A DNA stretch of 64,000 nt, from positions 18,166,001 through 18,230,000 of the forward strand of contig OX359246.1 in assembly GCA_947179485.1 (NCBI GenBank), written 5' to 3'. The notes beneath the pieces are model-generated. The model was not told where the DNA came from and ran no database searches. It saw only the letters and a program-made list of their open reading frames with translations. Source of the stretch: Allacma fusca (Eukaryota > Arthropoda > Collembola > Symphypleona > Sminthuridae). The number at the start of each line of letters is the position of its first letter. The first letter of the stretch is position 1. Made by a program: the position numbers and the translations under genes. Below are positions 1,389 to 60,651 of the stretch, piece after piece.

Positions 1389-4300
1389 ATGGGGCTATAT
1401 TATGTAATACAGTTTTCTAAAGACAACACAGTCGAGGTTGCGCCAGCCTCATGGCTGTTTGATAACAATAATCAATGCAATTGGCCGCACGAAATTACGG
1501 ATAAAGTAAAATTAAACAATTTAATTAAAAAAGGCAACCACCCAAGTGAAAATCCCAAAATTTCATGGAAAATTTTCCAGTGCAATGTACTACTGGGTTC
1601 AGGTAATTTAATATTTTTAATATTATATTATTTTTATTCTTTTTATTATTAATGACTTGGATGACTTGGTTATTTGGTGCTAATTCTTACTAAATAATCA
1701 TACTTATACGACTTACTACAAACATTATATACATCATTCCGTTGGCTTTAATTTCTTAATAAGTTTAGATGCTGATATTTAAATTTCAATTTGACTACTT
1801 TAGACGATCTCCATATTGCAAGAACGGGAGCAAAGAAAGCTTCGAAAGCGTTAGAAGATTCCAGAAGTGAATTTGATTTGACTGATGCTGAAGTTGGAAA
1901 TACGGGTGGTGGTCGCGTGTTAAGAAAACAAGCTCACCGATCAAATTACAAGATTTACAAGAATACGACTGTTTTTGACGAAGAGATCCAAATAGATGAC
2001 ACTTCTGACACTAATACAAGAGATCATGATGAGCCCGCATTAATCCCCAACGTGTTTCAAGACTTTGCCTGTAAATTACTTCTATTATTAATAGACTAAT
2101 GAGGAAGTTTAAGCACGTAATGTGTAATCGCAAATTATTTAATTTAGCAACTGACACACCAGCACACAAACCAGAGCACATGTTACGAGTTTCCAGTAAT
2201 AATTTAGAGCAGGGTGACCAACAGTTTACATCGGAGATTTTCGCCAGACTTGATAAACTAACTTTGGACATTCAGCAGTTTCGATCGGAACTACAAAGTA
2301 ATGACAGCGCTAATATTTGTCCTGCTCAATTTAATAATTAATGCAACATTTATCTTGTAGATTTTGAGGTGGTAACCATCGAAAAATTGGTTAAAGTATC
2401 GAAAGAATTGGACCACGTCTCAAGAACCCTTGGACGACACTTGATTTCATCATTGCATGACGACGAACTTAACTTACCAGTCGGAATTTCATTTCCGCTC
2501 TGAGATGGACGCCAACTTGCAACTTTGCACCTCTGGCTGGAGAGTAATGACAAGCAAATTAAATTAGTAAGGAGTTTATTTATAATATAATTACATGAGT
2601 ATAAAAGGTAATAAATTAAGATAACAATTTTAGTGTTTACTATGTAGTATTATGCTTAATTTCAATTCGATTTGCAGGCAAATTATCTAAAAGGGATAGG
2701 AGGTTCAGATTTGAAGGACTGCATCAAGCGAATCCTTGAACGGCTTATTTCTCCAGAATTGGGCCGAGCTATGAACTTTTCGGGAGCGAATGCAAAAATA
2801 TCTTTTAAGAATCATCATCTACGCCCGTGTCTTATTGGTAAAAACTTTTTTATATTTAATTTAACTTTCAATTGTGCTTAACATCATACTTATTACACGT
2901 ATATGTATACTTTCCCCCTTGGTTATGCACTTGCATACAATCCTCCAAGCATTTTATACAATTGCCATACTCCTCTTTATCCATTCCTTGCTACTCTCAT
3001 TAGTACAAGTACTGTTACTTAAGCAAAGCCCAATAACAGTGGGAGACGTACTTATAACTGCATTTTTCATAGTATATATTCCCTTTAAGTAATAAATCCA
3101 CTAAGAAGCAAATCTGAGTATCTCAAACATTTTCCCCATTTAATATTTTCCCTCACAGATGGGGAACCAGTATTTGTTTTTATTACTGTTAATTAGAGCA
3201 TCACCCCGCGTGATATTTTAGGCCCGTACACGCCCGCGGACCGTAAATGTTTACCCTCGCCCGCCCGGCCTGAAATTAAAGTTCCACAATAAAGGCCGCC
3301 CGGCCCTTAAAATTTAAAAAAGCCCATATCCCGCCCGCTAATATCAGTCTAGTTTTTAAATCCATTGTAGACCCAGAATATTTTTTTGAATGAAATTGGT
3401 ACGAGCTGAGTTTGCTTCCACTGCAGAATTCTTACAATTATGTTTGGCCAGAGTTGATGTCCCTCCTTAGTAGATCATCTCGGGGCGGTTAACGTTTGCA
3501 GGTAAGCCCGTTAAAAGGCCCGCTCGGGCTTCGGGCGGGTACGGATAAAATTTATTACGCTTGACGGGTTACGGGCGGGTAAGGTCTTTTCAATTTTAAA
3601 AAAACCGTGAAAGCCCGTTAAAGCCTGTGAAAAATTCATGAGTGGTACATGCAGGATCAAGGGTTGTAAAAGTACTTTGTCTTGAATATACGGAACGGTT
3701 TTCAAACATTTGTAATTTTACCTCTTAAACGAAGCCTTCATAATCATTGTCAACGAACTAAGTTATAGGAAAGAGCCGGAAAATGGCTAGTTTGAAATAA
3801 ATTTAAACAGATATGGGTTGACTATAGGTTTGCATAAATTATGTGAAGTTCAATGAGTGCAGGAATATTCTAGCAGGCGTTCGCTCCAAGGAGGGACATC
3901 AGCTCTGGTCAAACATAATTGTAAGAATTCTGCAGTGGAAGTAACCCCAGCTCTTATCAATTTCATTTCAAAAAAATTCGAAAATTCAAAACAGAATAAG
4001 AAAATTGTTCTCAGTCTATAGCTATGGATTTACAAGTTGAACTAGTATTAGCGGGCGGGCTACGGGCTTTTTTAAATTTTACGGGCCGGTCCGGGCTTTT
4101 TGCTGAACTTTAGTTTCGGGCCTGGCGGGCTCGTGTAAAAATTTACGGGCCGCGGGGTGATACTCTACTCCTTAGCGTGATTGACTGCTAAAATATCCCT
4201 GCACTCATTGCACTTCACATAATTCATGGAAACATTTATTCAACTAGTATCTGTTTAAATGATTTCCAAACTTTCGATCTTCCGATTGTTTCCTTCAATT

Positions 4301-4847
4301 TAATTCGTTGACATTGAATGTCAAGGCTATTTGTAAAGATAAAATTAGAAACGTTCAAAAATCGTTCCATGTATTCAAGCCAATGTACTTTTACAACCCC
4401 TGTTCCAGCATGCTACACATAATTTTTTTCACGGGTTTTTACGGGCTTTCACGGTCATTTTTAACCGCATTGAAAAGACCGTACCCGCCCGTAACCCGTC
4501 AAGTGTAATACATTTTACCTGTACCCGCCCGAAGCCCGGGCGGGCCGGGCTTTTTACGGGCTTACCCGCACATTTCAAACGCCCCAGATGATCTACTGTT
4601 AATTATTACATACGTATTCTCCATGAAGTTATAAATTGTGGAATTCATATATTCTGACATGAATATAATTTCAAACTTTCTAGCTGCTTTAACGACAACT
4701 GAATCATCCGTTCCAACTGAAGTCGAAGTTGACAAGTACGTCCAAAAGTGGTTTGGAAATTCTGGAGATCGTAATGGCGGTCGCAAGGCTCGAAGGCAAC
4801 TTGCAAGTAATCAGCAGTCCGTTACAGCGCCAGAAGTCTTAGAATAA
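1389..4847 (+). CDS. DUF4806-domain accessory protein of transposon copy A (multi-exon, probably decayed)
   Basis: The first exon (1389-1602) starts at an ATG and encodes MGLYYVIQFSKDNTVEVAPA, which aligns with the first exon of the copy B gene (MEYYIVLFSVDNTLEVVPAS). It ends in a GT donor. Later likely exons are about 1804-2070 (after TTTAG), 2147-2339, about 2355-2500, 2677-2838 (the DUF4806 core, with KGIGGSDLKDCIKRILERL and FSGANAKISFKN) and about 4681-4847 (C-terminal helix, VEVDKYVQKWFG). Some exon frames end in stops, so the gene may be broken. The last intron is swollen by two nested hAT MITEs. DUF4806 proteins commonly accompany this type of invertebrate transposase; their biochemical role is not established. 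The stop lies 47 bp before the transposase ATG. Confidence 0.5.
3194..4595 (+). mobile_element. hAT-like MITE (outer copy), TSD CTGTTAAT
   Basis: The element begins TAGAGCATCACCCCGCG and ends ...CGCCCCAGATGATCTA. It is flanked by CTGTTAAT on both sides (3186-3193 and 4596-4603), an 8-bp TSD typical of hAT. Its ends are filled with GCCCG/CGGGC arrays. It sits in the last intron of the copy A DUF4806 gene. After subtracting the nested copy (697 bp) and one 8-bp TSD, its own length is also 697 bp. Confidence 0.85.
3471..4167 (-). mobile_element. Second copy of the same hAT-like MITE, nested in inverted orientation, TSD CTCCTTAG
   Basis: It starts TAGATCATCTCGGGGCGG and ends CCGCGGGGTGATACTCTA, which is the outer element read on the other strand. 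TSDs CTCCTTAG lie at 3463-3470 and 4168-4175. The 697-bp length equals that of the outer copy. The self-insertion produces an interleaved a-c-a'-c' inverted-repeat pattern that looks inexplicable until the two TSDs are seen. Confidence 0.85.
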
Positions 4848-4894
4848 TTTACTTTGTTTTAGACGTGTAAAGTGCTCCGTGATAACGAAACAAT

Positions 4895-11928: not shown

Positions 11929-12738
11929 TTAGGAATCTGAATTTAGTTTCAACTTTTCGAACAATCCACTTCACAATGTACTAAATGATTATTGAAATTC
12001 TGTCTACGAATAAATACAGCGTAGAGCGGAAGCTACAAGTTGGCATACAGCCGACGACTGTCGAACCAAGTTGGCATACAATTGTCGGCCCAATCTACAA
12101 GTTGGCATACAGCCGACGGCCGACGATCCGTCCAAGTTAGCATACAGCCGACAATTGTCGATACAATCTAGCCTACGATCGAGATATCACCAGCAAGTTG
12201 GCATACAGCCGACGAATACAATGTAGCGGACAGCCGACAATCGTCGCTCCAACTTAGCATACGAAGTAATTCAAGAACATGCAAGTTTTTTCATAATTTC
12301 TTCAACCCATCTCCAAAGGAGACGAGGTCGAAAGGAATTCTGATTACAGGAAGGGGTAAGGTAGGGTATAACTGAAACGGCAAATTGTAATCCTCGTTCA
12401 GTCCCAAAACAAAGACAATTTTTACGATGACGTATAGGGTTCATTCTTTTATTACGTCATCAAAATTTTGCTATACTTTTACCCTCCTCCCCCTGTCTAG
12501 ATAATCAAGTTCATCGCCGACTGTTCACTCCCCTTCGTCCTTTTATTATGTCATCAGTAAACACTGACACACCTGTGACAATATCACGTGGTACGGTTTT
12601 ATTCGTATTAATATGAAGGAGTCTAAACGTTGAATTCAATACGTTTCATTCATACAATGAATGCTACTGTGTGAATAGACTGTAGTCTACGCAGCTCACT
12701 TTCAGCTTTTTTCAGCTTTGGCTTTTAGTTGTTTGGTA

Positions 12739-14553
12739 CATAGCTGCACTTACATATGCACTAGTCTAGTCAAGTCTAATCTTTGTTGGCCGTGGTATTG
12801 ACTAGTTTAGTCTAGTCAATTCACAATGGTTTCCAAGAAATCTTAGTCAAGTCAAGTCAAAGTCACTTTTTGAGTCGAAAATCCTATTCAAGTCATTCTA
12901 GTCTCCTAGTCACTTGCATTTTATTATTTATTATCTAAATCAAATCTAACCCAAACCCTGAAAACAATATCAAAGTAGTCCTTATTTAGTTTAACAGTTT
13001 TAAGTATGTATGAAGGAAATGTTCCATATAATTATAGGAATTAAATAATTATCTGGCATGAATAAAGAATTGAAACAAATTGTGAAATATTTTGATAATC
13101 AATGCACTAGAACGGTTAATGCTCAGGGAACTAACGGATAGTACCATTTCATAAGTCCAGTTTTGCTGAGTCTGGTTAGGCTTTTCTAATTATAAATTTT
13201 TTATGTTTAAATTAATAAATTCTGAGTACAATATTTGTTACTCCAACTGCGGTGGCTCTACAGAAGTTATGTGAGCACGAGCAATGGCCGATAGCTCAGA
13301 GAATAGTCCGAAATTAGTTGCGATTCTATCGTTATAACGTCAGTTTTTGTTATCTTCTGTAGATGTGATTTCATTTAGTTGTTTTTTTCTGTGCCTTTTT
13401 TGCGGGCGGGTTTTCTGGTGATGCTTTACTTTTCAGGATTTCTATTGTTCCTTCTTTAAAAGTTTTCTCACTACCTCAGATTTATTTTTGTATGAAATGT
13501 TTACTGCATTAGCTTCGGCCTCAATTATTCGGGATATTTATATAAATCTGTATGTCTGGTGAGATTTAATAGATTTTCGACTGGACCTTGGGCGATTCAT
13601 TTTAATATAAATGAGTGTTTTTATTAAATTTTAAAAAAATTACAACAATCGGCAAGAAAACTCCGAGTTCGTGGGGTTATATCTTGAAACAGGATACTGA
13701 CCCGAAACAAACCGCCATCGTTGTGTAGCAACAGTTCAAGGACAGTTGAGGTAAATCGAGTGGGATTGGGCCCCCAGTCACCAGACCTTAACCCACTTGA
13801 ACATCTCTGGGCGGAACTTGAGAAACAAATGAAGAATCGCCGCCAAAAAACAAAAATGTACTAATTGGAACATCACTGGGTGAAAGGGAGAAAATCCCCC
13901 CGGGGTAGCCCCGAATTTAATCGAGTCAATGCCAAGACGTATCCTAGCGGTCATACAGGCCATGGGCTATGTGGCTGGATATTGATTGTAGGTCAAATGA
14001 ATTTATTGTTTGAGTAGATAATTAAAATTTATAAGGGTGGGAACAATTTTTTGACCAATTATTTTGGGATGTAGGCCCCTGATCGATATTTTTGGTAGCG
14101 GGTTACACATTTGGTCAAAATAATTTCCCCGTAAATTATAGTCACATGCATGTCTTTTATTCTAGTGGTGTTTTGGTTTACCAAAATGTATATCATGAAG
14201 AATATTTGACATGAGGCCATACATGACCATGATATAGAAATTGCTTATGGTTTGGAGCCTTTATTGTCGTTAGGAGTTTACCCATTTCCTCCTAAAACTG
14301 CTTCATTGAATGATTTAGGCATCATTTCAAGACATTCACAAATTGACTAGACTAGTTCCTGCACATTTTTCACATAGTCAAGTCAAGCCAATCATTATAA
14401 TTTATAATGCAAGATTTTTCTAGTCAAGTCAATTCTTTGTGGTATTCGGTGCTTGCTAGCCAAGTCAAACTAGTAAAATTTACGAAAACCCTTAACTAGT
14501 CAAGTCAAGTCTCTCATTTCTTAGTCAAGTTTGACTAGACTAGTGCAGCAGTG
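12739..14553. mobile_element. hAT-like element with TAGTCAAGTC arrays, TSD GTTTGGTA
   Basis: TSDs GTTTGGTA lie at 12731-12738 and 14554-14561. Ends are CATAGCTGCACT and AGTGCAGCAGTG. Subterminal regions on both sides (12739-12920 and 14340-14553) hold inverted arrays of TAGTCAAGTC/GACTTGACTA. It is nested inside the 12028-15121 element and itself contains a Tc1-type transposase relic. Confidence 0.8.
13645..13862 (+). pseudogene. Tc1/mariner transposase relic (C-terminal catalytic region)
   Basis: The frame ILKQDTDPKQTA corresponds to the QDNDPKHTA motif of Tc1-like transposases. After two stop codons and a frame change, SPDLNPLEHLWAELEKQ (tca at about 13776 onward) matches the SPDLNPIEHLW signature that carries the third acidic catalytic residue. 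The relic ends at a TAA near 13862. It is clearly dead and lacks the N-terminal HTH region. Confidence 0.75.
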
Positions 14554-15756
14554 GTTTGGTAAACCTCAGTAATTTTTTTTATTTGAATTTCCCGCGGATG
14601 ATGTTACTGTCGTCATTTATATTAAAACCTCCCCCTCCTATCTTCGTCATCGTCATTTCTTCTTGTGCCCCCTCCCCCTTTGATGATGACGTAATAAAAG
14701 AATGAACCCTATACGTCATCGTAAAAATTCATGGCTTTGTTTTGGGACTGAACGAGGATTACAATTTGCCGTTTCAGTTATACCCTACCTTACCCCTTCC
14801 TGAATTCAGAATTCCTTTCGACCTCGTCTCCTTTGGAGATGGGTTGAAGAAATTATGAAAAAACTTGCATGTTCTTGAATTACTTCGTATGCTAAGTTGG
14901 AGCAACGATTGTCGGCTGTCGGCTAAATTGTATTCGTCGGCTGTATGCCAACTTGCTGGTGATATCTCGATCGTAGGCTAGATTGTATCGACAATTGTCG
15001 GCTGTATGCTAACTTGGACGGATCGTCGGCCGTCGGCTGTATGCCAACTTGTAGATTGGGCCGACAATTGTATGCCAACTTGGTTCGACAGTCGTCGGCT
15101 GTATGCCAACTTGTAGCTTCCTCCTAAAACACTGAACAACTGAACATTTCCCTAAAACACTGAACAACTGAACATTTCCCTAAAACACTGAACAACTGAA
15201 CAGCTGAACAACTGAACGTTACACTAAAACACTGAACCACTGAACAACTGAACCACTGAACATTATACTGAACAACTGAACCACTGAACCAATAGGAGTT
15301 TTTACCCTTTTACAGAGAAAGCAAAGATGTAATTTTAATCATCGTCATATTATAACTTGTAACCGATAATGGATCAAGTAACCGCGTGCGTCGATCGATA
15401 CAAACCATATTTAGGGTCGTACTAAACACTAAACCCCCTTAACCTCTGAACCTACTGAACCTACTCTAAAGAAACATGCAATTTAAAGATACAGTTTCAG
15501 AATTTTCAAACCATCCTCTGGACATGACTATTTTCTGAACCTCTCTGAACCCCCTCTTAAAGTCATTGCATTAGGTCTGAACCCCTCTGAACCCCATCTT
15601 AAAGTCAATCCACCAGCTCTGAACCGCTCTGAAAAATCTTACAGTCAATCCATCAGGTCTGAACCCCCTCTTAAAGTCCAAACATCACGTCTGAACTCCT
15701 CTGAACCCTTTCTCAAAGTCATTGCACCAGGTCTGAGTCCGTGTTTGTTCTAAATT

Positions 15757-15931
15757 CAGGGGTGGATTTACGGGGCGGCTAACCCTGGCCCGGCCAGGGT
15801 AAAAAATTTAGGGCCAGGGTAAAAAAATGTTGACTCAGGACCTCAGATTACATACATGCACATGCAAAGGCCCGCAAATCTATTTTTGGGGTTAGGGCCA
15901 GGGTAAAAATTATTTCATTAATCCACCCCTG
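15757..15931. mobile_element. Short hAT-like MITE, TSD TCTAAATT
   Basis: This 175-bp element has ends CAGGGGTGGATTTA and TTAATCCACCCCTG and perfect TSDs TCTAAATT at 15749-15756 and 15932-15939. Its interior contains repeated 'gggccagggtaaaaa'. It is nested inside the CTGAAC element. Confidence 0.85.
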
Positions 15932-15992
15932 TCTAAATTCTTCAGATGTATTTACTTATTTCATTCAGGGTTGCACAATTGAACATTCCATA

Positions 15993-16636
15993 TAGTGGTC
16001 GGAACGATTCAATTCAATTCAGAAATTTTCGATTCAATTCAATTAGTTATGTGGACTGAATCATAAACCGTTTTGAGATTCGGTCCAGTATAAAAACAAT
16101 TCAATTCAATTCGGTTTTACTCTATGAATTGAACTGAATTGAAAATCGTTTGTTTTTTGCGGAATAACAAATTAAGCACGCAGCACCTGCTAAAACACGT
16201 AAATGTGTTTTACTCATTCATTTAGAAATACATGAATTAATAATCATTTAATAATATCAAATTAAGTTTTAATATTAAAATTATTATTTAATTCATATTT
16301 CTTAACTTAATAATCAGAGTTGAATTAAATTATGAGACGTCAGAACATTGCTGAATGTAAGCTGTTTCGAATGATCCAAAACAATTACCACAACGTTAAG
16401 ACGAAAGTGTGCATATTTTTCACGCCTCTGCTTCACGCTATACGAGGTTTCAGTAACCGGTTAATTTGACCAATGATTAATCGTTTGGACTGCAATTCAG
16501 AGTAAACAATTCAAATCAGTCCAGCAGTGTGAACTGAATCGTTCGGTTCGGTTCAATATGTAAACCGAATTGAAAAAACTACGAATCGAATTGAATCGAA
16601 AAATTTCGGTTCTGGACTGAATTAGTCCGACCACTA
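15993..16636. mobile_element. hAT-like MITE with GATTCAATTC arrays, TSD ATTCCATA/G
   Basis: Ends are TAGTGGTCGGAACGATTC and GTCCGACCACTA. TSDs at 15985-15992 (ATTCCATA) and 16637-16644 (ATTCCATG) match at 7 of 8. Both subterminal regions are arrays of GATTCAATTC or its complement. It is related in plan, and in its TAGTGGTC terminus, to the element at 21080-21940. Confidence 0.75.
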
Positions 16637-17691
16637 ATTCCATGGCCTTTTGGACGTTCTCATTTTGTGTCATTTTGGGCACTTTGGGAATATTCAGCCT
16701 GAGGCATGTTTAAATGGACAATTTTATGAAATACGTTATTATTTTTTTATATTATCGGAAGATCTCGTTCGCGTGCGTGATGATGTAAAATTATCATTCC
16801 TTGGAGACTAAACATTGTTGTAAGAATGCAACACAAAAATATTTAAAACTGATAAGAAATCCATTGTTAATGAATTTCAAAACTCGTCATAAGCAGTCAC
16901 TGTAAATTTAAAGTGTTTGCCATGTAAAATTTCGAACTACAATTACTTTATTATTTGGGCGAATAAAAATTTACTATATAAGCTCATAGTTTTGAAATAT
17001 TTTATAACCGCAAAATCTCATCCAAAACTCAGTATTAATGAATTTTTGTTTTTGATAGATTTTTTGTGTTGTTTTTACTGTTCATTAACAAAATATGAAG
17101 TATTCACAGACACTAGCGAAATTGTTCTTTGAAAACCCCGTAAAGTCATCTATAATAAGGTTGAGTGTTTGCAACCCTTCAAAATGAATGTTGCTAAATT
17201 TTTAAGGTTTTTTTTAATTATATTTATTCAGCACAGGACTTCATTTCCAATTGAATTAAATTCCTAAAGATGGAAAATCATTACACAAATAGTAACAAAA
17301 TTTGAGAGGGTTTCAGACCTGGTGCATTAGCTTAAAGATGGGGTTCCGAGGGGTTCAGAGCTGGTTTATTAACTTTAAGATGGGGTTCAGAGGGGTTTAG
17401 AGAGGTTCAGAAAATAGTCATGTCCAAAAGCTGGTTTGAAATTTCTGAACCTGTGGCTTTAAATTTAATGTTTCCTTAGAGTAGGTTCAGTAGGTTCAGA
17501 GGTTAAGGGGGTTTAGTTTTTAGTTCGACCCTAAATAGGGGTTGTATCGATCGACGCAGGCTGTTGCTTGATCCATTATCGGTTATAAGTTATAATTTGA
17601 CGATGATTAAAATTACATCTTTGCTTTCCCTGTAAAAGGGTAAAAGCTCCTATTGGTTCAGTTGTTCAGTGGTTCAGTTGTTCAGTGTAAT

Positions 17692-17832
17692 GTTCAGTGG
17701 TTCAGTGTTTTAGTGTAATGTTCAGTGGTTCAGTGTTTTAGTGTAATGTTCAGTGGTTCAGTGTTTTAGTGTAATGTTCAGTGGTTCAGTGTTTTAGTGT
17801 AATGTTCAGTGGTTCAGTGTTTTAGTGTAATG
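17692..17832 (+). repeat. 28-bp tandem repeat, about five copies
   Basis: The unit 'gttcagtggttcagtgtttt' plus 'agtgtaat' repeats in perfect phase about five times in the right arm of the CTGAAC element. The left arm carries a related 28-bp period (CTAAAACACTGAACAACTGA plus ACATTTCC), so the arrays seem to expand independently. Confidence 0.8.
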
Positions 17833-17900
17833 TTCAGTTGTTCAGTTGTTCAGTGTTTTAGGGAAATGTTCAGTTGTTCAGTTGTTCAGTGTTTTAGGGA

Positions 17901-28846: not shown

Positions 28847-29230
28847 CCCAAGTAGCACCAATGCGTGAATGTAACGCGTATATAGCGTGCATGAATCACG
28901 AAAGTAACGTAAATTTTACGCTTCAAATTGGTTAAATTCTAGTTAAACTTATATTCAAATATTGGTGAAAATGTCCGGGTTTTGAAACGTAAAAATATTA
29001 ACGTAAATTTTATGTACACATATTTGTGTTACTGAAACGTTTAATTATGGTTGATTTTTTCATTCAAGCTAATTCGATAGTGTCTCAGTACGCTACTAAA
29101 TAATATAAGATTTTAAAATAAATTATTCGTTTGAGTTGGCATCTAAACCAAAATTTATTAAAACAGAAACAAGATGACAACGCCCGTTCAAAACAACTAA
29201 GTAATTAAAAAAATTAAATTGTCGGCATCC

Positions 29231-33958: not shown

Positions 33959-34059
33959 TATCGTCGGTGAAACTTCCTAACCAGCTAAAATAAAAAATGC
34001 TTAGAATACAGACCGGCTATTTAGCGCTGTCGCTCAATACTCACAACAGCCATAATTCC

Positions 34060-34570: not shown

Positions 34571-34574
34571 TACT

Positions 34575-35400: not shown

Positions 35401-35536
35401 TCCACTTACATGATACACTGCAAAGGGAATTATGGCCGGGTTTCACTTTAGAGTTTCTAGCGGAAGCGCTATAGCCGGTTTTCATTTTAGGCATTTTAAA
35501 TTATAGCCGGTTAGGAAGTTTAGCCGACGATATGTC

Positions 35537-46358: not shown

Positions 46359-47784
46359 CTAAAAAATCGTTCTTTGTCGTAAAAATCATCTCACGTTTGC
46401 AAACTTCTGCCTAAGAAGGAGGTTCCACTTGGTTTGATCCAACAATTCGTCCCACGCGTCATCAAACATGAAATCAGCAACGTTAAGAAATACAGCGGCG
46501 AATTTATTTTCATTTCCTTGGGCTTTTATTGCCACAAAAAATCCTAGATCAGTTCCTTCAATCTCATAAGCGAATGCTGCTTCAATACCTCTGAAAGTAA
46601 TCGTTCAAACAGGAAAATGTTACAGGCATGCAACATTTAATATGATTTGTTCTTTATGTGGATTTTGTAGTTGATAATAGTTTACGTTTTTCCAGTTGCA
46701 CTAAACATCTCCGAACCCAATGGTTGCACTTCGGCTAACATTCTGGCACACGCAAATGTTCTACATCCTCGAAATTTCAATGAAACGTTCAGACCATTGA
46801 CTGAAATAAAAATTATTAAAACATTCGATTGAGTCCCATCCCGAGAATTGTCTATTTTAATAACAAATAGAACATTTGACGAAAACCAACTGTAACACTA
46901 ACCAACTTCCATAACACAAGTGATCACATCTGAAGAACCGACCAGGCTAGAGACCCTTCGGAAATTATCCAAGGTAACAGCAGTATTTGAGGATGTAGTT
47001 CGGACAGGGCTAAATATGAATGCTACTTCAGATGGAACATTGGATTCGAAAATTTCAATATTCACAATTAAATGGGATGTGTCTCCCCGTGGAGATTTGC
47101 TAGATAACCGGGAGATATGACCTCTTACAAAAAAAGATCCTTGATTTGAAAATATCTCAACAGGCAATTTGCTCAAGCTAGACTACAACCAAATCCCGTG
47201 ATTAGACTACATCGTTGAAAGTACATGATTATCATTTGTTCTTGTGCTAATACTTACCAACATCCAATCATCTGGCAAGTTCGAATTCCGTTTCAACACA
47301 GAATACAGGAATTCATCCACAGGAAGGTCTCTTGGAGAAAATCCAATACCCAATAGGCAATTCCCATTGGAATTAATCCTGAAAATTATGGTCAAGCGCA
47401 ATAACGTAGTTCCAATTACGTAGGAGCACAAGAACTCACAGGATCCCCTAAAAATAAGGTTACACAGATCAAGCTAATTGTGCACACGCAAAATTATATA
47501 CAAAGAGTAATTACACTCCGGTAAACATAATTTTGTTTTATTACCCACTTCCAAAGATGCATTTCCTTCCTACAAGGATCCTACAAATAGGCATATTTAT
47601 AGGATAGGAACTGACTTTGCAAGAATTTATATGTAGGATAAGGAAGGCATGAAACATCTAATTAATAAAAGTAGGAATAGGATAGGAAGCCTCCTTCCGA
47701 GGAAAAGTACAAATAGGAAGGGCAGGAGTTAGCTGGCAAAGCATAAAGTATGTATGTAGGAAATCGGAAAGGCCTCAATCCTAA

Positions 47785-48206
47785 GGGAGCGTTCACAAAT
47801 GACGTCATCAAATTAGTGGGTGGGTGCTAACGGGAGATGATGATGTTGATGACGCAGTGGTAGGGTGGATTTGACCAAATGATGATGTCATCAACCGGCG
47901 AATGTTACCAACGATTTTTTTGCTTAACCGTTAACAGTTTTGGTAGTTTGATTCAACCTGTTTCGACTTGCTTACTTGCCGAAAATGCCGAAAATGCCAG
48001 GCATTTTCAAATTAAGACATTTTCAGGGCATTTTTAGGTAGGCAGGTATAAAACCCAGGGCATTTTCAATTGTGCAACCCTGGTGATGATGACGTCATTA
48101 CATGGGGTGGGTGCGTCGTTTCATCATATGATGATGTCTGATGACAAGTGTGTGACTGGGTGCCTAAAAACCAGTATTTTGGATGACGTCATTTGTGAAC
48201 GCTCCC
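47785..48206. mobile_element. PIF/Harbinger-like MITE, TSD TAA
   Basis: TIRs GGGAGCGTTCACAAATGACG (perfect, about 25 bp, continuing TCATC) are flanked by TAA at 47782-47784 and 48207-48209. Removing the element restores the palindrome 'tcaatcctaa'/'ttaggattga' of the host element, confirming the boundaries. The interior has GATGATGAT runs and a patch of GGCATTTTC motifs with a CAGGGTTGCACAATTG-type terminus, probably a fragment of yet another MITE. Confidence 0.75.
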
Positions 48207-48480
48207 TAAACAAATTGTTTAGGATTGAGGCCTTTCCGATTTCCTGCATACATACATACTTATGCCTGTATCCGTAAACGTGACCTAAGCGACATTTACA
48301 GACTAATGACAAAAGGAACTCCTCGACGATTCTACACGCAATTCCAACGTTTTTTCTGATTTTAAGGGGTAGGTATAGGAAAAAGGAATACGTGTTTTAT
48401 GTCAAAGGAACCTATATAGGAATATAGGAAGGCAGAGTTGTCCATGGTTTTAGAATATATGCATATATGTAGGCTCGAGG

Positions 48481-49667
48481 CAGGGTTCTACAGTCTTTGG
48501 TTTGATCAGTCCGAGTCCTCCATCAGTCCCACGTCTCATTCTGTCAATCAGTCCCAGTCAGTTTTGTATCCCGGATCTATCAGTCCCTCCCTATCAGTCT
48601 CAGTCCTGCTAAAAGTCCTTGCCAAAAGTCTCAGTCAGTCCACAAATGTATATTAATGTATTTAAGACTGCCAGAGCTCGCATAACGTTGAAACCACATT
48701 GAAAACGTTCAATTTCGGCAACTATGTTCCTATACACCCAGAAAGAAAATCCCCACTAATTGAAATTTGTTTATAATTTTCCAACCTATCCATTGCAGTT
48801 AAATAGGTGTAGGCGTAGTAATTTGGAAAATTAACCGTTCGGTACAAGAATTCAATATAGAGGTCATGAAAGGGACAAGTGATGGTGGTTATTTGGAAAA
48901 ATGAAATGATAGAATTACTCATAATATAATAAACTTTCAAAAAAATAATTTGGCTCTCTTTGTAACAAAACATTTTTCCAGTAAACATTTACAATATACT
49001 ACAACTAATTGTAAGTTGAATACTTCAGGAACAGAATGGTCTGCGAATCATGATTACATCAGAAGGATATAATTCAGTTTCACATATCGGAAAAAGTTAG
49101 AACTAATATTTCATTTTTGAATATGTAATCAACTTTTGGCCTTATTAAAAGTCAGTCACATCAGTTCATTACATACACTGATACTGCACTTATAGTTATA
49201 ATTTTAACGTTGCCCAACTAATTGTAATTTATCATTATTTATTATGAATAATGCAGCAGAACGTGGGAATTCTACTCAAGTGATTTGTACAATGTGGTGC
49301 GGGTGCGGGCCAACTAACAATATCTTTGTTAAACAAAAACAACAGATGGAAGCCATAGTATAGCTGGAAAGAAGAGACCAATGATAAAAATTAATTTAAT
49401 GAAACGTATCGGAAATACCCTGCCACTTTGATTTGTCCATGCGATTTTTAAAGATCAGTTCAGTACTTGCACTCTTGCACATGCTTGAGCTCATTAGCAG
49501 GCCTCATATCAGTCCCAGTCAGTTTTGCCTATGAAATTCATCAGTCTCAGTCAGTCTCAGTCTTAAAAAATAGGACTCTGTATCAGTCCCAGTCTGTCGC
49601 AGTCTTCAGTCAGTCCTATGATCTACCCACTCAGTCTTTCCCGTGAGTCCAAGACTGTAGAACCCTG
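48481..49667. mobile_element. hAT-like MITE with CAGTCCCAGTCAGT arrays, TSD GCTCGAGG/GCTGGAGG
   Basis: TIRs CAGGGTTCTACAGTCTT(T)GG are nearly perfect at both ends. TSDs at 48473-48480 and 49668-49675 match at 7 of 8. Both subterminal regions are arrays of CAGTC in the same visible motif ('cagtcccagtcagttttg' occurs on each side). The centre is AT-rich and non-coding. It is nested in the 47552-49771 element. Confidence 0.8.
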
Positions 49668-50646
49668 GCTGGAGGCTGGCATTTGGAATAGATATAGGAA
49701 ATATGTAGGAGAATATTATGATACCATTTAAAGGATGGATATACGTACTGCGATTCAATTATGCATCTTTGCCTACTTCCTTGAAAACATATTGCTTCGA
49801 TTCTGTCACTATCGATCAAAGGGGGTAACCTTCGTTTACTCCCACAATTTGGCCGGACATAATACAAGGGGCTAAACAGCGTGGACATTGAATAGTTGGC
49901 TGAAAATAATTGATTATGTTACTTGTCAGTCATTCCATATCTTCCTTAATTATAATTGAACTAATTTTTATTGCATATTTGAAGAACACGACACTAACCC
50001 AACTTTATTGCGCAGGTCGGGTCATAACCGGTCCGCAAATTTGAGAAGATCTTCGAAATTGGTTCTTCAAAAGCAATTATTGACCCCTCAATCTTGGACT
50101 TGTGCTGTAGTTTTAATTCCTCGATACGAGCTTTCACCCAAACTCTTTCCTCATTAAGGGTCATACTTCTAATTTTCTGGGGAAAGTATTCCCCTGGCGG
50201 TTCTTTAGTAATTGAGAAAATGGAGGTTTCACGCTCGGATGAGCTCGATAAAAACTTACTCTCAGTGTTGGGATTATCGAAGGGAATGGCTTCTTTGATT
50301 TTGTTCACATCCAATTGTATTTGCCCCACAACTTTCCGCAAAGCTTCATTTTCATGCTTCACTTCTCTCAACGTTGCGGACTGTTCCTCCAATTGGGATT
50401 TTATGCTAGCTAGCCATTTGTCCTTACAGATTACAAACCAATATATTTTTCAGTCAAGTTACAGAAATATACAAATCTACGTAGGCGGAAAATATATATG
50501 GCAGTTAAAGTATAAATTGGAGTGAAATGCACGTAATTTAGTATTTGTAAATTTTGGAGTACTTCTGAAGCAAAACTTATTACAAATAAAATACAAGAAA
50601 TTTGAGCCGTGAATTATATTTTCAATGTAATAATGTTCACTTACAT

Positions 50647-52311: not shown

Positions 52312-53518
52312 TAGTGCCCCTCATGGGTACAGGTTTTACCCGGGTATTTGGGTACAGGTTCAGGTACAGGTGCGTATCAGGTACATACTTTTTGTACCCA
52401 TTCAATTTGGGTACAGGTACAGGTTCATTCGTTAGATACCTGAAAACTCAGGTTCAGGTTCAGGTATAGGGACAGGTTCAAAAACCAATCTTGTGGGTAT
52501 AAACCCATCAGGTACGGGTACTCACTGGGTAATTACCTGAACCTGAATGTAAAATACCTGAACTTTCAGGTACTTCTCATTCAAATATAATTTCCAAGTA
52601 AAACCTGTAAATGTGCTGTTGATCTTTAAAAATTTATCCGAATTGTTGACCTTGTAACGTGTTACATTAAAATTTATATGTATAACCTCAGTCATGAAAA
52701 CTAATTCCACCATATAGGAACACGTGGATAGTTACCCAGCATTAGCTGGAATGACCAGAGATTTTTTAGCAGTTCGTGAAACTAGAGTACAGATAGAGCG
52801 ACCCTTCTCCGATGGCAAAGTTTTTCTGACGCAAAAACGTTTATATAAGAGTGGAGATACGGTAGTAAATGTTTTTTTCTACAAGCTTGGCTGGAATTAA
52901 AATCCGGGGAGTTTGAATCTAAAAAAATGTTTTCCATTGCGAAAGCAATTTCAGGTTGCAAAACAAATTCTTAATCGTTTAATTTATCGGCATTATTGAA
53001 CATTTAGAAAGTATTACGCTGCATTTGTATTGTTGCATTGAACTTATTCGTATCGTAGATTTTGCTATCTGTTACCTTTTCAACCTTTATGCAATCATTT
53101 ATAACTACTGATAATTCTAGTACTTTGTCATGCTTCCGAAGAATAAAAAATAACAAAAATCTAATATGATAAATAAATTTATTAAGTCGAAATGTCTTGG
53201 TGGCAGATATTTTAATTTTTTATTTCGTGTAATATATTTGATAATCGTTTAAATTAGTACAATCGGAAATACCCGGGTAGGTTCAGGTACTTTTAAAATA
53301 TACCCGGGTACAGGTACTTTTTTGGGTACTTTTTGGGTACAGGTACTTTTCAGGTACAGGTACTTCTGATTGAGTTTGAGTACAGGTGCAGGTTCAGGAA
53401 AATTGAACCCAGGTATTCAGGTACAGGTACGGGTATAGGTTCAAAAAATCCATGTACCCATGATTCAGGTACAGGTTCAGGTCCAGGTACAACATTTTTG
53501 TACCCATGCGGAGCACTA
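52312..53518 (+). mobile_element. hAT element with CAGGTACAGG arrays and transposase remnant, TSD CCTTCAAC
   Basis: Ends are TAGTGCCCCTCATGGGTACA and the complement of TAGTGCTCCGCATGGGTACA. Perfect TSDs CCTTCAAC lie at 52304-52311 and 53519-53526. About 250 bp at each end is an array of CAGGTA/CAGGTT hexamers. The middle keeps the C-terminal part of a hAT transposase, which ties this terminus type (and the related 25690-26376 MITE) to the hAT superfamily directly. Confidence 0.9.
52718..52900 (+). pseudogene. hAT transposase fragment (C-terminal dimerisation region)
   Basis: The frame, which has no ATG, runs from after a TAG at 52715-52717 to TAA at 52898-52900. It reads SYPALAGMTRDFLAVRETRV, then ERPFSDGKVFLTQKRLYKSG and FFYKLGWN. 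This is the YPxLAxMARDxLAIPxxxxxxERxFS...W pattern of the hAT C-terminal dimerisation domain, with the invariant ER-FS retained as ERPFS. The rest of the transposase is gone. It is positioned between the two repeat arrays of its element. Confidence 0.85.
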
Positions 53519-55144: not shown

Positions 55145-55782
55145 TTACAAACCATAGATGTAGGTTTTTTTCCCACTCGCACTCACACTCGCGCTTCCAT
55201 AAAGAAAAATCCACCACTCCTACTCGTGCCCACTCATAGTCTGTCTGAGAATGTAAACCTCCTACTCCTACTCTCAGCGCTAACTTCAAATCTCACCACT
55301 CCTACTCACCACTCGTGAGTTACTCAATGTTTTCATCGAAATATTTAGATGATTAAACTAAACTTACCTTGCGGTTTAATCATAATTATATGAAGAGACT
55401 CGTCCGAATATATTACATGGTAGTAGTCTCCATCTATGCATTGGTCCACGAAATTTAAAGACTTAAAATCTCACTTCTCACTATCCCGCATGGTATCACT
55501 ATTACATCCATAACGGTCATTCTTTTAAAGCATTTCCGGTTTGTTTATTGGGGAGTCATGAGCATTAAGCGAAATGACTGGGAGGGCGGGTGTAATATAT
55601 TCGGACGAGTAATCTTCATATAATTATGATTAAACCGCAAGGTAAGTTTAGTTTAATCATCTAATTATATTTCAGGACTCGTCCTCTATATTACATGGTA
55701 GTTGTTTAAAGTGCAAACCGGAAACCACTGTCAAGCAATTCTCTGATCGCACCGATTTTATTCATATTCAATGGCCTTGAAA

Positions 55783-56768
55783 TTACATTTTTAGGACAGA
55801 ATTTGAGAAAACTGTATTATCTACAATCGGACGTTGGTAGAAAGTTGCAAAAACTGATGACGATGGCGTCCAGCCTGCTGTTTTGCGAATGACTTCGATA
55901 TTTACGCCTTGTCTGGAGGCTGCTGAAGTTGAAGCGTGCCTAGTACTATGAGCAGAAAAAGTATCTGTATTAATACCGCTGTTTTTCAGCAATATTTTTA
56001 TCCATCTGCCTATAGTCTGTGCAGTAACTCCCTTGTGAGGTTTTGTTATTGATATAAACAAGGATTCACAGTCGTGTCGTAAGGATGCAGTAAGGTTTAG
56101 GTACGCAAGCAAAGTAATGTTGGGACATAACTCTGGGTCTGATTTAAAACTTGGAAGATATAGACATGGTTGGGGTTTTGAAATTCTTGACGTTTTTATC
56201 CTTGCCGAAACCAAGATCTTCGTCCTTCATTATCGAATTTAATATCTTGTAGCTTTATTTTTGAGAACGTCTGAACTCTATGAGCTGTAGTTAATGCCAG
56301 TAGACCTGCGAGCTTAAGGGTCAGTTTTTCTAGCCCCAATTCGGCCGTGTTAGGGAGAGACTTTAAGTAAGTAAGAACAAGCTGAGGATCCCATGTTTGG
56401 TCATAGCGTGGCTTAGGAGGTCTTAAATTCCCGAGCCCCTTAAAAAATCGAGAAACATTTTGGTCTTGACCTATGCTTCCACCTGAGATTAAAGATACAG
56501 CGGATCTGATGGTGTTTAGTGTGGCATATGAAGCCCCTTCCTCAAACATTTTCTGTAAGTATTGTAACACATTTTGCGTTGAGGAGCTAAAAAGGTCGAC
56601 ATTTTCGTGTTGGCAGTAGGCATGCCAACCTTTTATTGCAGACGAATATTGATTTGAAGTTGATACGGTCATTGAGGATAACATAGTGTCTATGCAGCTT
56701 TCAGGTACCCCTTGTTTTTTGAACCCTTGCCGGAAAGCTTGCCGGCCAACAGGGACAAGGACCTCCAC
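55783..56768 (-). pseudogene. DIRS tyrosine recombinase, frameshifted
   Basis: The N-terminal SAM-like/core-binding half (56768-56196) includes STSNQYSSAIKGWHAYCQH and ends in the catalytic-domain start LLALTTAHRVQTFSKIKLQD, whose Arg is the first catalytic residue. The frame slips near 56205 and continues as KTSRISKPQPCLYLPSF, LFISITKPHKGV, QTIGRWIK, FSAHSTRHASTSAA (the H-x-x-R box), AGWTPSS and ATFYQRP with the nucleophile Tyr. All catalytic positions are still present, so the single frameshift is the main lesion. In DIRS elements this enzyme inserts the circular DNA by site-specific-type recombination without TSDs. Confidence 0.85.
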
Positions 56769-58650
56769 AGTGGATGTTGAGCTCTGGAATGAGAAGACAA
56801 AAGTGTTTTCCGTGGGTTAATCTTAACTGCCGGTGATACCAATAGGTCCCGAAACATGGGGAACTATGCCTGTGTTGGCCAGTCCGGAACAATTACAATT
56901 CCACATGCTTCTTCAGACGCAATTTTTTGTAAAACTCTCAGTATCATGGCAAAAGGAGGAAAGGCATAGAAATAAAAGGACCTCCAAGTAACTGTGAAAG
57001 CGTCTACGTAGCTAGAGTAAGGATCTGGGTACCAACTAGCAAACATACGGCATTTAGAATTTCCATATGTAGCAAACAAATCTATTTCCGGAGTGCCGAA
57101 TTTCTTACAGAGGTCATTATAAACGTTGTGATCTAGAGACCATTCATAGTCATCGCTTAGTACCCTTGACTCTCTGTCTGCAGTAATATTTTCCGCTGAC
57201 GCAATGTAGCTGGCAAACACCATAATATTACGTAACTCGCACCATTGCCAGAGTGTTCGTGACAAAGAGTTTAAATCGTCAAACTGTACACTACCCATTC
57301 GATTAATATAAGCTATTGCCGTCGTATTATCTATACGAAGCAAAATATCGCAAGAATATTCGTTTATTACAAAGCACTGTAAAGCATAAAAAGCTACTTA
57401 TAATTCTAAATGATTTATATGAAATTGTTGCTCTCTTCGCGTCCAAAACCCATGTGTTTTCTTGTTACCCATGCAGGCACCCCAGCCTGTTCTGGATGCG
57501 TCGGAGAAAATTGTATACTTATAATTTACCGTTTTAACGGATTTAAAACTCAATGGAATCGATTTTAGCCACCACTGCAGATCCTTTTTAGCTGCTAAGG
57601 TGATTGGCATGTTCCCTTCATAATTACCCTTGCACTGTAAGAGGCTTATGAACTTGAGTCTTTCGAGGGACTTAGTATACAGTGTACCATATTGAACTGC
57701 CTTACAAACTGCGTTAAGTATGCCCAATAATCTTGCGAACCGTCGGATTTTGCATGAAGACAACTGAAGGAACGTATTAATTGTCTGACAGATTTGTTGG
57801 CATTTTTTGTCGGGTATTTTTATTGTCATATCCTTGGAATTGAAAAGAAATCCCAAATATTCGCATTCTTGGGAAGGCTGTAACATGGATTTTTTAAAGT
57901 TTATAATAAATCCTAGAGATTCTAAAACGGAAATACACACTGAAATTTCCCTCTCACAATCAAAGTGCGAGTACGAAAAAATAATCATGTCATCTATATA
58001 AACAACTAATCGGTAGCCTTTCGTCCTCAAGTACCCACAACAGGTTTGAGAAGTTTTGTGAATAGCCAGGGTGCTACAGAAAGCCCGAAAGGCAAGCAAC
58101 AAAATTCATACAGAAGATTGTTCCAGTAGAATCGTAAATATTTTCTATCACGCTTTGCAATGGGAATAAGGAAATATGCATCTTTGAGATCAAGTTTACA
58201 CATGTAGTCGCCTTGACATATTAATTTTGAGGCCAAACGAATGTCCTCCATTTTGAAGTGATTGCATTCCAAGAATGTATTATTATGTATTGTAAGTTTT
58301 TTCAAATTTAAAATAAATCTCTTTGAGCCATTAGGTTTTGGTATTAAGAAGACCTGTGAGATAAATTCCCCATTACTATGCTCACAAGGTTTTATAGCCC
58401 CATTAAGAATCAAGGTCTTTATTTCCGCATCCATAACCTTTGCTTCGGATGGATTTAATTTCATGGATTTAGGTACTATTGACTGGTGTGGTATTGACTT
58501 AAATGGTAGTCTAAATCCCCTTGTCCATGTCAAAATATTCTTACTTCTCGTTAAACCCCTCCATTCATTTGTAAAGTATTGTAATCTGCCAGCGTACGTT
58601 CTTACGTTTAATGGTGCCGACGGCGCGGACTCCGTTTGGGGCTCCGGTGG
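56690..58650 (-). pseudogene. DIRS reverse transcriptase / RNase H polyprotein, multiply disrupted
   Basis: The frame opens before 58533 (GRLQYFTNEWRGLTRSKNIL) and overlaps the gag-like frame. RT blocks are visible: QVFLIPKPNGSKRFILNLKK, CKLDLKDAYFLIPI, CCLPFGLSVAPWLFTK, then YRLVVYIDDMIIFS with the YIDD catalytic pair, and CEYLGFLFNS. A -1 slip near 58040 separates PVVG from YLRTKG. RNase H follows (TIFSDASRTGWGACMG, then LRIDNTTAIAYINRMG) with a TAA between HLEL and VAFYAL near 57398. The C-terminal DIRS domain has DLFATYGNSKC, DAFTVTWRSFYFYAFPPF and IVPDWPTQ, then a TAG where Trp is expected. It ends near 56690. Confidence 0.85.
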
Positions 58651-59774
58651 TCTCGGTGATAACGCCCGCCCATCGCCAGTGGTTTCTTCTGGTATTGCGG
58701 GCGTTTCCCGTTTAAAGGAGCTCTTTTAAATGGTGTGACGTGAGTTTCTTTAGCCTTATCAACATTAGCCGGGCCAGGTTTATCACGTCGCAACTCCTTT
58801 CCCACCTTAGAAATATTTTTGGCAGCTTCTATTTTCTCTTTGAAATTCTGCCCATACAAATAACCATCAGCAGGAGTTTGGTCTGCCACGCTCTTCATTA
58901 GAAAGTTGAGAGTGGGAGTTATATGTGCTCGTCGGGCTAATGATAATTTGCACTGTAAGTCACAAAGAAGTCTGCCCGCATCATTTAGAGCCTTAACCGT
59001 TTTAACTTTTGCTGAGAGATTACCAGACTCTGTAACTTTCAGTTCCAAAGCGCTCGTGATTGCGGTAGCAACGGCAGATATTCCAGCCGACAACTGATTT
59101 TGCTGAGAAACCATATAGCCCTCTTTTTTGAGCAACTTGGCATTTTTTGTTATGCTAGCTTGAACTTCTGGATTTAGAATTGGCGCATCGAGTACCTTGC
59201 AATTTACCGGTACTGGGTGTGCGTCCATTAGCTTATTATAGCTTTCAGTTTGCAGGCCATCTTTAATGAGATCAGACCAAACTGCTACAAGCGGTTCGGG
59301 AATAGGGGTTCCCTCTACTTCCTTTGGTCGGTCTGTCGTTCCAAGAATCTCATTCAAGTCAGGATCTATAGGAGCGTGAATGGAAAGAACAGACGGGGAC
59401 CGAGGAGTCTCAGTTAAGTTGTAACGTGGACTTGCTGAATGCCTCAGAGTTCTTTGCTGAACATGGCAAGGGCTCCTCCGAACTCTTGGTGAGCGAGAGC
59501 GACTAGGTGAGATCGACCTGGTAAAACTTCTCCTGCCGGAGTGTTGTAATTGTCGCCTTCGAGGCACGCTGCTTGCGTGACTCTCGCTCCTTTCACGGGA
59601 ATAAGAAGCATGTCTCCGTGCCGAGCCTCTCGGACTGCGGTCACTGTGACTGCGTGATTTCGTTTTTCCCGAGTGTTTTTTGAGATTTTTGGACAGTGAC
59701 TTCACCTGCCTTCTCAGGCTTTCAATCGTGTCATCATCCGATGAACTAGAGGTTGAGCGGGATCTTTTCCCCAT
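58608..59774 (-). CDS. DIRS gag-like protein, 388 aa, uninterrupted
   Basis: ATG at 59774. The first 130 residues are a very basic Ser/Arg-rich region (SRSTSSSSDDDTIESLRRQV, many RS and SPR motifs) with a short coiled-coil-like stretch. The middle (residues about 150-320) is a globular gag-like segment (VAVWSDLIKDGLQTESYNKL, STAVATAIT-like helices, LLCDLQCKLSLARRAH). The C-terminus is basic again (GKRPQYQKKPLA, RSPKRSPRRRHH). No CCHC zinc knuckle was seen, as is usual in DIRS gag. It probably packages the RNA template. It overlaps the start of the RT frame. It is the only frame of this element without a lesion. Confidence 0.7.
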   Translation of the reverse strand: MGKRSRSTSSSSDDDTIESLRRQVKSLSKNLKKHSGKTKSRSHSDRSPRGSARRHASYSRERSESHASSVPRRRQLQHSGRRSFTRSISPSRSRSPRVRRSPCHVQQRTLRHSASPRYNLTETPRSPSVLSIHAPIDPDLNEILGTTDRPKEVEGTPIPEPLVAVWSDLIKDGLQTESYNKLMDAHPVPVNCKVLDAPILNPEVQASITKNAKLLKKEGYMVSQQNQLSAGISAVATAITSALELKVTESGNLSAKVKTVKALNDAGRLLCDLQCKLSLARRAHITPTLNFLMKSVADQTPADGYLYGQNFKEKIEAAKNISKVGKELRRDKPGPANVDKAKETHVTPFKRAPLNGKRPQYQKKPLAMGGRYHRDHRSPKRSPRRRHH

Positions 59775-60651
59775 GACTCTGCGGACAATAAAGCCAACCC
59801 CACTATGAAAGAAATTCTGACAAAAAAGGCTTCAAATAATGAAAATCAGTCTGTTTAATGAGATCTTGTTAATTAATGTGAGTCTTACCCTTACCCTCAC
59901 ACTAATTAACACCAAAAAACCACCTGAAAATCTGAAGAAGGAACCAAACTGTTGAGCTAATAATCAAGCGTGTGGACGCAATGCACGAAATGAAGAGAAT
60001 GACCGTTATGGATGTAATAGTGATACCATGCGGGATAGTGAGAAGTGAGATTTTAAGTCTTTAAATTTCGTGGACCAATGCATAGATGGAGACTAATACC
60101 ATGTAATATAGAGGACGAGTCCTGAAATATAATTGCAAATATTAAGACAAGTTTTCCTTATCAATAAAAAAGCGAATATTGAGCAAAAAATCGTTCTATA
60201 TAATTTCAAAGTCAAACTCAATGCAAATCACGACCGACGAAGCTTACAATAATTGCAACAGCGTCTGGAACCTGGAAGCATGTTCAAGATTTCTTTCTAA
60301 TCTGTGATATATTGTGTCTTCCAATGCATGACTTGTACATACATACATAAGTCGGCATTCCATACGATTGTTTGTATGAAATTATGAAATATTTGGCAAT
60401 AACCGCCAATCTTTTAATCGTGGCAGTGCTAGCTTTATGCGGTTAATACAAAGGTACGAGAAATAGCGAGTAGCAAAGCATGCTACTCCTACTCCTACTC
60501 TTTTTCTATGCTACGATTTATACCACTCCAATTCACGACTTTTTTGGCGCCTTCACTCCTACTCTTTACCTTGCTACTCTCCTGTGAGTGTGAGTAGGAG
60601 CGTGTTGAGTGCACTCGTCACTCGCGAGTAGCCTCCATGTATGTTACAAAC

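Follow-up and report, generated by a model that had tools for sequence, protein, structure and literature searches.

Elements of the Window

The window, that is, the whole 64-kb stretch of DNA that was analysed, contains 14 hAT-like elements, small and for the most part without genes, four of which (D, G, I2, and K) come in addition to the ten listed in an earlier note. Two ionotropic-receptor-like ORFs are also present in the window. The hAT-like elements are the following:

3194..4595 (3194-3470 plus 4176-4595), + strand: O, outer GCCCG element, hAT-like; TSD CTGTTAAT; 14 copies of GCCCG
3471..4167 (697 bp), - strand: I, inner GCCCG element; TSD CTCCTTAG
12739..14553, + strand: C, TAGTCAAG element; TSD GTTTGGTA, exact
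15757..15931, + strand: D, small GCCAGGGT element; TIR CAGGGGTGGATT; TSD TCTAAATT, exact
15993..16636, + strand: E, TTCAATTC element; TIR TAGTGGTCGGA; TSD 7/8
21080..21940, + strand: F, TTCAATTC element; TIR TAGTGGTCCC; TSD ATACGGTC, exact; empty site near 26716
22836..23513, + strand: G, TATGTATG element; TIR CAAAGCTGGGCA; TSD 7/8; three paralogues with empty site
25690..26376, + strand: H, CAGGTTC element; TSD ATGCAAAA, exact; TIR match 16/16
27234..28107 (ends approximate), + strand: I2, TTCAGTTC element; TSD decayed; insertion seen through two paralogues (41420 and 61105)
44186..45364, + strand: J, GGCATTTT element; TSD AACATAAT, exact; clean empty site 8801-8808
47552..49771, + strand: K, TAGGAA element; TIR CAAAGATGCAT; TSD 7/8; empty site 11052-11070
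48481..49667, + strand: L, TCAGTC element; TSD 7/8; TIR match 16/16
52312..53518, + strand: M, CAGGTAC element; TSD CCTTCAAC, exact
52718..52897, + strand: hAT C-terminal dimerisation fragment inside M (PF05699); 60 codons open, then a stop
55153..60643, + strand: N, ACTCCT/CTCCTAC element; TSD TTACAAAC, exact; empty site 40955-40966

O and I are two copies of one family, the copy at 3471 sitting reversed within the copy at 3194. Several elements have other sequences inside them: C carries a Tc1/mariner-like DDE_3 remnant, K encloses L plus an element with a TAA TSD, and N is split by a DIRS-like retroelement with nested ORFs.

Three further elements, listed without strand, look like a separate, fold-back-like class:

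12028..15121: GGCATACAGCCGAC element; TIRs of ~438 bp, 98% identical, with inverted tandem units; split by C
15122..17900: CTGAAC element; inverted tandem arrays at both ends; carries D and E
33957..35534: CCCTCCACTT element; inverted tandem arrays of several hundred bp; TIR CATATCGTCGG

These had been described as following the plan of the hAT-like elements without a visible TSD. The inverted tandem arrays are indeed there, and inspection of the apparent ends by eye gave no TSD for any of the three elements, but long TIRs with inverted tandem subrepeats are present in this class (CTGAAC, GGCATAC, CCCTCC). With their long TIRs and no TSD seen, the CTGAAC, GGCATACAGCCGAC, and CCCTCCACTT elements need to be kept apart from the hAT-like set.

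Target Site Duplications, Tips, and Empty Sites

An 8-bp TSD was found for 13/14 elements, exact in nine cases and matching at 7/8 positions in four (E, G, K, and L); that of I2 has decayed. All ten elements listed earlier as having such a duplication do have one, exact in eight and 7/8 at 15993 and 48481. A short TIR starting with YA (CA/TA) is the rule in the hAT superfamily, and YA-type tips were observed at both ends of 13/14 elements, I2 failing at its approximate coordinates. hAT elements also favour TSDs with T in the second and A in the seventh position, and the TSDs here show this bias (14/26, p = 0.016).

Duplicated copies of the locus gave empty sites for six of the 14 elements, namely F, G, J, K, N, and I2 (the last with its decayed TSD), the counterpart copy of F having partly lost the TSD region. 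For H and M, pre-insertion sites are suggested only, and the remaining elements have no counterpart within the window.

A strict scan, combining an exact TSD, YA tips, and at least 13/16 TIR matches, returned eight matches, whereas 50 shifted controls averaged 0.08. Five of these correspond to the elements, two lie within inverted repeats (3433 and 15399), and one (10609-16872) is unexplained. With the TIR threshold lowered to 10/16, the same scan gave 12 matches against a control mean of 3.5 and a maximum of 9. The loosest TSD-plus-TIR scan left 118 matches, after the prior removal of 24/142 with low-complexity TSDs, against 90-113 across six shifted controls; being near the control level, this count proves nothing alone, and the strict scan is taken as the evidence.

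Subterminal Motif Arrays

Each element carries a family word of 5-8 bp in 8-22 dispersed copies (four in the smallest element) over ~250-300 bp from the tips. All motif matches fall within the outer 250 bp in 12/14 elements, and 17/18 and 21/22 do so in L and M, respectively. That the elements have short-motif arrays of their own, as proposed previously, was confirmed against both shuffles and 40 control windows. The commonest 6-mer reaches 10-20 copies in 11/14 elements but at most eight in all of the control windows (0/40 reach 10), and the commonest 8-mer is found in at least six copies in 10/14 elements compared with at most four in the controls. The latter were windows of 700 contiguous bp drawn only outside the listed insertion intervals, and for long elements the score was taken from 350 bp at either end; at each word length, 1/40 control windows exceeds all of its 60 shuffles.

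The filter of the word scan skipped words made of two different letters, and GCCCG was scored in a separate test. It is present in 14 copies in O and 14 in I, a number reached by 0/1000 shuffles, and in six copies in the 31,340 bp of non-element sequence; the best 5-mer apart from GCCCG is no better than shuffles. D is a weak case, its 175 bp holding four copies only of an 8-mer (0/200 shuffles had as many), and the word of G, TATGTATG, could be simple-sequence drift.

The additional proposal that each motif had been amplified into a minisatellite was not sustained for most elements. Ten of the 14 elements overlap no TRF tandem array (score of at least 50), the other four (F, G, H, and M) conforming in part to the head-to-tail pattern, and the motif positions of H and M were kept while the spacers diverged. 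When these two elements are aligned, motif columns are 84-85% identical and other columns 52-61%, a conservation to which the tendency of the aligner to stack motif copies contributes. Independently of any alignment, 15/24 CAGGT sites of H have a counterpart in M that is on the same strand and equally far from the tip (within 2 bp), compared with a mean of 21% and a maximum of 50% in 154 shifted comparisons. The M sites not kept in H amount to 8/18 on the left and 6/14 on the right.

It is unlikely that the arrays are functionless minisatellites or microsatellites that replication slippage built up from a starting unit close to the tip. Such slippage would account for the TRF arrays overlapped by F, G, H, and M and for the words of E, F, and I2 that follow one another head to tail, two or three at a time, but not for the ten elements free of tandem arrays, nor for motif positions shared by H and M among columns that have diverged so far. 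I2, moreover, has ten separate clusters over both ends with an identical base throughout. The interpretation of the motif as the subterminal binding site of the transposase is supported by the subterminal position and by the H/M sites conserved above their spacers, but O and I, with 85% identity in motif columns and 81% in the remainder, show hardly any contrast.

Probable Assignment to the hAT Superfamily

The transposase fragment within 52312-53518, which was to anchor the hAT assignment, matches PF05699 (E = 5.5e-4, 20.1 bits) below the Pfam cut-off of 21.4. M, the element covered by the six-frame Pfam scan, is the one element of the 14 with a hAT coding fragment; the other 13 are assigned by the length of their TSDs and by their tips. 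Within the 64-kb window, neither an autonomous partner nor a BED domain was observed for any family. The TIR-plus-motif pattern of the CAGGT family had no match in viral contigs, and its occurrence in two bacterial MAG contigs is close to the number expected by chance when 257 Gb is scanned with 19 fixed bases.

Some elements might belong to another superfamily with TSDs of ~8 bp, such as the P element, and have been pooled through convergence. The hAT-like coding sequence, confined to M and weak, would allow this, as would the heterogeneity of the tips, which start with CAAAG in G and K, with CATA or CACT in C and N, and with TAG/CAG in the others. We regard it as quite unlikely, since 13/14 elements have YA-type tips (the coordinates of I2 being approximate) and 13/14 have the 8-bp duplication. 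hAT identity, as originally suggested, is backed by the TSDs, the tips, and the sub-threshold dimerisation-domain fragment of M. The elements of the window are probably non-autonomous (Ds-like) members of the hAT superfamily, from about ten families, with arrays that are putative transposase docking sites.

Array Orientation and Comparison with Known Systems

The arrays had been described as lying in opposite orientation at the two ends, and this was contradicted by the strand counts: among the ten elements listed earlier, six are same-strand, three opposite, and one is a tie. Over the 14 elements, the majority strand is the same at both ends in nine (C, D, G, H, J, K, L, M, and N) and opposite in four (O, E, F, and I2, with F and I2 weak), with a tie for I. 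Same-strand calls are weak for D (four copies) and J (8/12), and the strongest one-strand arrays are those of L (TCAGTC, 18/18) and M (CAGGTAC, 14/14). At the family level the same-strand to opposite count is 8:2 (p = 0.11), so that only the inverted rule is called wrong and a same-strand rule is not claimed. If most families do have their docking words on the same strand at both ends, neither end would be read as the mirror image of the other.

We compared these layouts with parts of the published work on related systems (PMC10368747, PMC3688188, PMC3260210, PMC3143072, PMC4763223, PMC2872659). The subterminal transposase words given there are AAACGG for Ac, C(G/A)ATTCAT for Herves, AATTCA/TGAATT for Kat1, and AAG(T/C) for Hermes. 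In maize Ac/Ds, non-autonomous relatives retain copies of a 6-bp word, bound by the transposase, over the outer 200 bp, and the words here are likewise subterminal; the accounts consulted describe one family with one word, whereas about ten families with private words are found here. E and F repeat seven of the eight bases of the Herves motif of Anopheles gambiae, the comparison being with the published motif alone: CRATTCA has 30/45 of its window copies in E and F, and the full 8-mer three of nine. In the Kat1/MATa region of Kluyveromyces, too, the repeats of the hAT transposase are subterminal hexamers, and Hermes has many asymmetric subterminal repeats per end, bound by several protomers via BED domains. 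The polarity of the two ends differs in Kat1 and is mostly the same here; the Hermes word is of 4 bp, with inner repeats antisense on the left and sense on the right, unlike the mostly same-strand arrays of the window. As far as the portions consulted go, this end polarity in Kat1 and Hermes counts against the docking-site reading. Galileo and Foldback, as described in the same sources, resemble the CTGAAC, GGCATACAGCCGAC, and CCCTCCACTT elements in having long TIRs that contain tandem repeats, in Galileo with multiple THAP-domain sites; they are unlike them in that no transposase was recognised and no TSD found in the elements here.

It is very unlikely that the words serve the element otherwise, for example in the RNA, in silencing, or as sites for host factors: the same-strand arrays of 9/14 elements, strongest in L and M, would suit it, but host-factor sites are expected to be common to families and each family has a private word, and hAT transposases are known, from the work cited, to bind such words.

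Returning to transposase docking, we infer that the short tip of an element would be cut by the transposase, and that the family words near the tips are probably docking sites for the DNA-binding domain of an absent autonomous transposase. By analogy this domain may be a BED finger, and several protomers could be gathered on each end before cutting.

Possible Word Switch between Related Elements

Related elements differ by one base of their words. The ratio TTCAATTC:TTCAGTTC is 22:2 in E and F together and 0:14 in I2, and at the variable base AA:AG is 13:0 in F, 9:2 in E, and 0:14 in I2. A one-base motif difference between related elements is seen also at old aligned sites, and suggests a switch of the binding code. 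For the variable base of H and M, six ways of counting gave p = 0.011, 0.026, and 0.029 on the one hand and 0.054, 0.15, and 0.16 on the other; p-values from motif counts within one element assume independent sites, which these are not. Aligned H/M sites are mixed at this base, and the concerted change is weaker than first thought.

We propose, tentatively and with more doubt than confidence, that hAT families split by a one-base switch of the docking word at all sites of both ends, together with the transposase, after which sister families stop cross-mobilising, most words being same-strand at both ends. Related families would thereby diverge as the transposase changes, and the steps between F, E, and I2 would show such a switch at different moments, as would the T-to-A shift, a partial one, that separates H from M. 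The array layout is already known in hAT elements, and the less expected part is that the word of relatives seems to have changed in concert at almost every site. Searches of open-access papers turned up no account of sister hAT families changing their motif in such a coordinated way, and the parts of the Hermes work consulted describe no word switch between families. Joint change of a transposase and its many sites is hard to observe, since every site must follow; with related families side by side and insertion sites revealed by duplicated copies, the locus provides a natural series in which to follow it. About ten families of one plan can fit into a single 64-kb stretch.

hAT-like elements in the window

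We identified at least 14 hAT-like elements in the window. Ten of these, starting at 3194, 3471, 12739, 15993, 21080, 25690, 44186, 48481, 52312 and 55153, had been listed in an earlier note as each having an 8-bp target duplication (TSD), and all are real, with the duplication present in 10/10 (eight exact, two at 7/8). Four are new:

15757-15931, hAT-like element
22836-23513, hAT-like element
27234-28107, hAT-like element, TSD decayed
47552-49771, hAT-like element

A strict scan (exact TSD, YA tips and 13/16 TIR matches) returned 8 matches in the window, 5 of which are elements; 50 shifted controls averaged 0.08. The matches of a looser TSD/TIR scan were barely above its controls. The GCCCG elements at 3194 and 3471 belong to a single family. 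The latter is inserted in reverse within the former and has its own TSD; after separation each measures 697 bp, and their identity outside the motif, disregarding gaps, is 81%. A hAT transposase fragment had been taken to anchor the superfamily assignment: a dimerisation-domain fragment is indeed present in 52312-53518, with a match slightly under the Pfam cut-off, and the other hAT assignments rest on TSD length and tips.

Comparison of the window with itself revealed one locus in several tandem copies, which lets an insertion in one copy be checked against the empty site of a sister copy. Two of the ORFs in these copies resemble ionotropic receptors (DNA identity 95%; Lig_chan matches under the Pfam cut-off):

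41492-43273, ionotropic-receptor-like ORF
61177-62943, ionotropic-receptor-like ORF

Collinear self-matches gave unoccupied counterparts for the elements at 21080, 44186 and 55153, as well as for those at 22836, 27234 and 47552, all absent from the earlier list. The counterpart of 44186 holds a single copy of AACATAAT and that of 55153 a single copy of TTACAAAC, while the target is partly missing in that of 21080. For 25690 and 52312 a counterpart was suggested by collinear blocks; because the flank alignments are poor, both were left out of the empty-site count.

Subterminal motif arrays

The arrays of a private short motif are also real. One 6-mer reaches at least 10 copies within at most 700 bp in 11/14 elements, a count matched in every one by 0/200 dinucleotide shuffles; the top count across 40 non-element 700-bp windows was 8. 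The two GCCCG elements do not reach this mark, their two-letter word having been excluded by the filter. Tested separately, GCCCG occurs 14 times in each (0/1000 shuffles reach this count) and 6 times in 31,340 bp outside the elements. The 175-bp element at 15757, below the 10-copy mark, has four copies of one 8-mer (0/200 shuffles). Motif matches are confined to the outer 250 bp in 12/14 elements, which is partly trivial for short elements and non-trivial for those of 1179-1815 bp (12739, 44186, 48481, with 17/18 matches, and 52312, with 21/22).

Opposite orientation at the two ends, in contrast, is not the rule that had been proposed. By majority strand, the two ends agree in 9/14 elements and oppose each other in 4, with 1 tie (6, 3 and 1 among the ten listed earlier). 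Every TCAGTC of the 48481 element (8 left, 10 right) lies on one strand, as does every CAGGTAC of 52312 (5 left, 9 right), and 12739 is a clear same-strand case (AGTCAAG, 3 left, 6 right). The inverted plan was found in the outer GCCCG element, near the tips of the TTCAATTC/TTCAGTTC group (weakly at 21080 and 27234) and in three fold-back-like elements. Counted by family, same-strand placing leads 8 to 2 (p=0.11), so neither orientation is general.

The description of the arrays as minisatellites, as opposed to docking sites, likewise does not hold for most elements, since Tandem Repeats Finder arrays occur only at 21080, 22836, 25690 and 52312, the other 10/14 elements being without. The elements at 25690 and 52312 are related, and their identity in motif columns is 84% (left end) and 85% (right end), against 52% and 61% in non-motif columns. 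As the aligner favours agreement in motif columns, the sites were checked alignment-free: 15/24 CAGGT sites of 25690 have a same-strand site in 52312 within 2 bp at equal tip distance, against a mean of 21% and a maximum of 50% in 154 shifted comparisons. Such retention would be expected of sites kept during element activity, not of slippage. There is also turnover, with 8/18 left and 6/14 right sites of 52312 lacking an equivalent in 25690. The GCCCG pair showed no clear contrast between motif and the rest (85% vs 81%).

Apparent coordinated change of the word between sister families

The tips of the elements at 15993, 21080 and 27234 share a skeleton of TIR, first site, A/T-rich spacer and second site. 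The ratio TTCAATTC:TTCAGTTC is 22:2 in the first two vs 0:14 in 27234 (p=1.2e-8), or 17:1 vs 0:10 by clusters (p=8e-7). By eye, the outer two sites that align at each end have G as the variable base in 4/4 cases in 27234 and A in 7/8 in the others. The shared skeleton argues that the sites predate the family split and were changed in place. The best cause we can offer is that transposase recognition would shift first and the sites then follow. It is possible that one variant instead spread by gene conversion between ends, but the spacers are not homogenised. The word shift between 25690 and 52312 is weaker and mixed (p<0.05 in 3/6 ways of counting).

Transposase-bound subterminal words have been reported for Ac (AAACGG), Herves (C(G/A)ATTCAT) and Hermes (AAG(T/C)), and proposed for Kat1 (AATTCA repeats). 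Of the 45 CRATTCA in the window, which hold 7/8 Herves bases, 30 lie in the elements at 15993 and 21080, together with 3 of the 9 full 8-mers. Because such words are published for hAT transposases, the plan is known and the present elements are new members; the earlier observation is true, partly misdescribed, and its explanation already known. Judged from sequence, what goes beyond the known plan would be that sister families apparently switch their word and that the words often lie on the same strand at both ends.

Fold-back-like and other elements

Three elements had been assigned to the same plan:

15122-17900, CTGAAC element
12028-15121, GGCATACAGCCGAC element
33957-35534, CCCTCCACTT element

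They do not follow it, having long TIRs with inverted tandem units, as in Foldback/Galileo; no TSD was found by eye. Galileo repeats are reported to contain THAP-domain binding sites. A direct repeat of ~60 bp (33772-33829 and 35925-35984, 85% identical) lies on both sides of the insertion holding the CCCTCCACTT element.

The window (G+C 36.7%) is eukaryotic in content, with introns, DNA transposons and a DIRS-like element. The latter (55338-60134) lies within the ACTCCT element at 55153, and its ORFs encode reverse transcriptase and tyrosine recombinase. A Tc1/mariner-type DDE_3 remnant (13688-13861; E=4.4e-5, under cut-off) lies in the TAGTCAAG element at 12739. A 4.7-kb DNA element (28847-33533; TIR CCCAAGTAGCACC, target duplication TA) has ORFs matching DUF4218 (E=5e-5, under cut-off), and its insertion site is unoccupied at 22320, 45572 and 63237. 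ORFs of a related set (35-37% identity) were found at 4886-6841. Nested in the 47552 element is another (47785-48206; TIR GGGAGCGTTCACAAATGACGTCA, target duplication TAA), which we take to be PIF/Harbinger-like. It encloses a piece with GGCATTTT motifs whose tip, CAGGGTTGCACAATTGAAAATGCCC, resembles that of the 44186 element.
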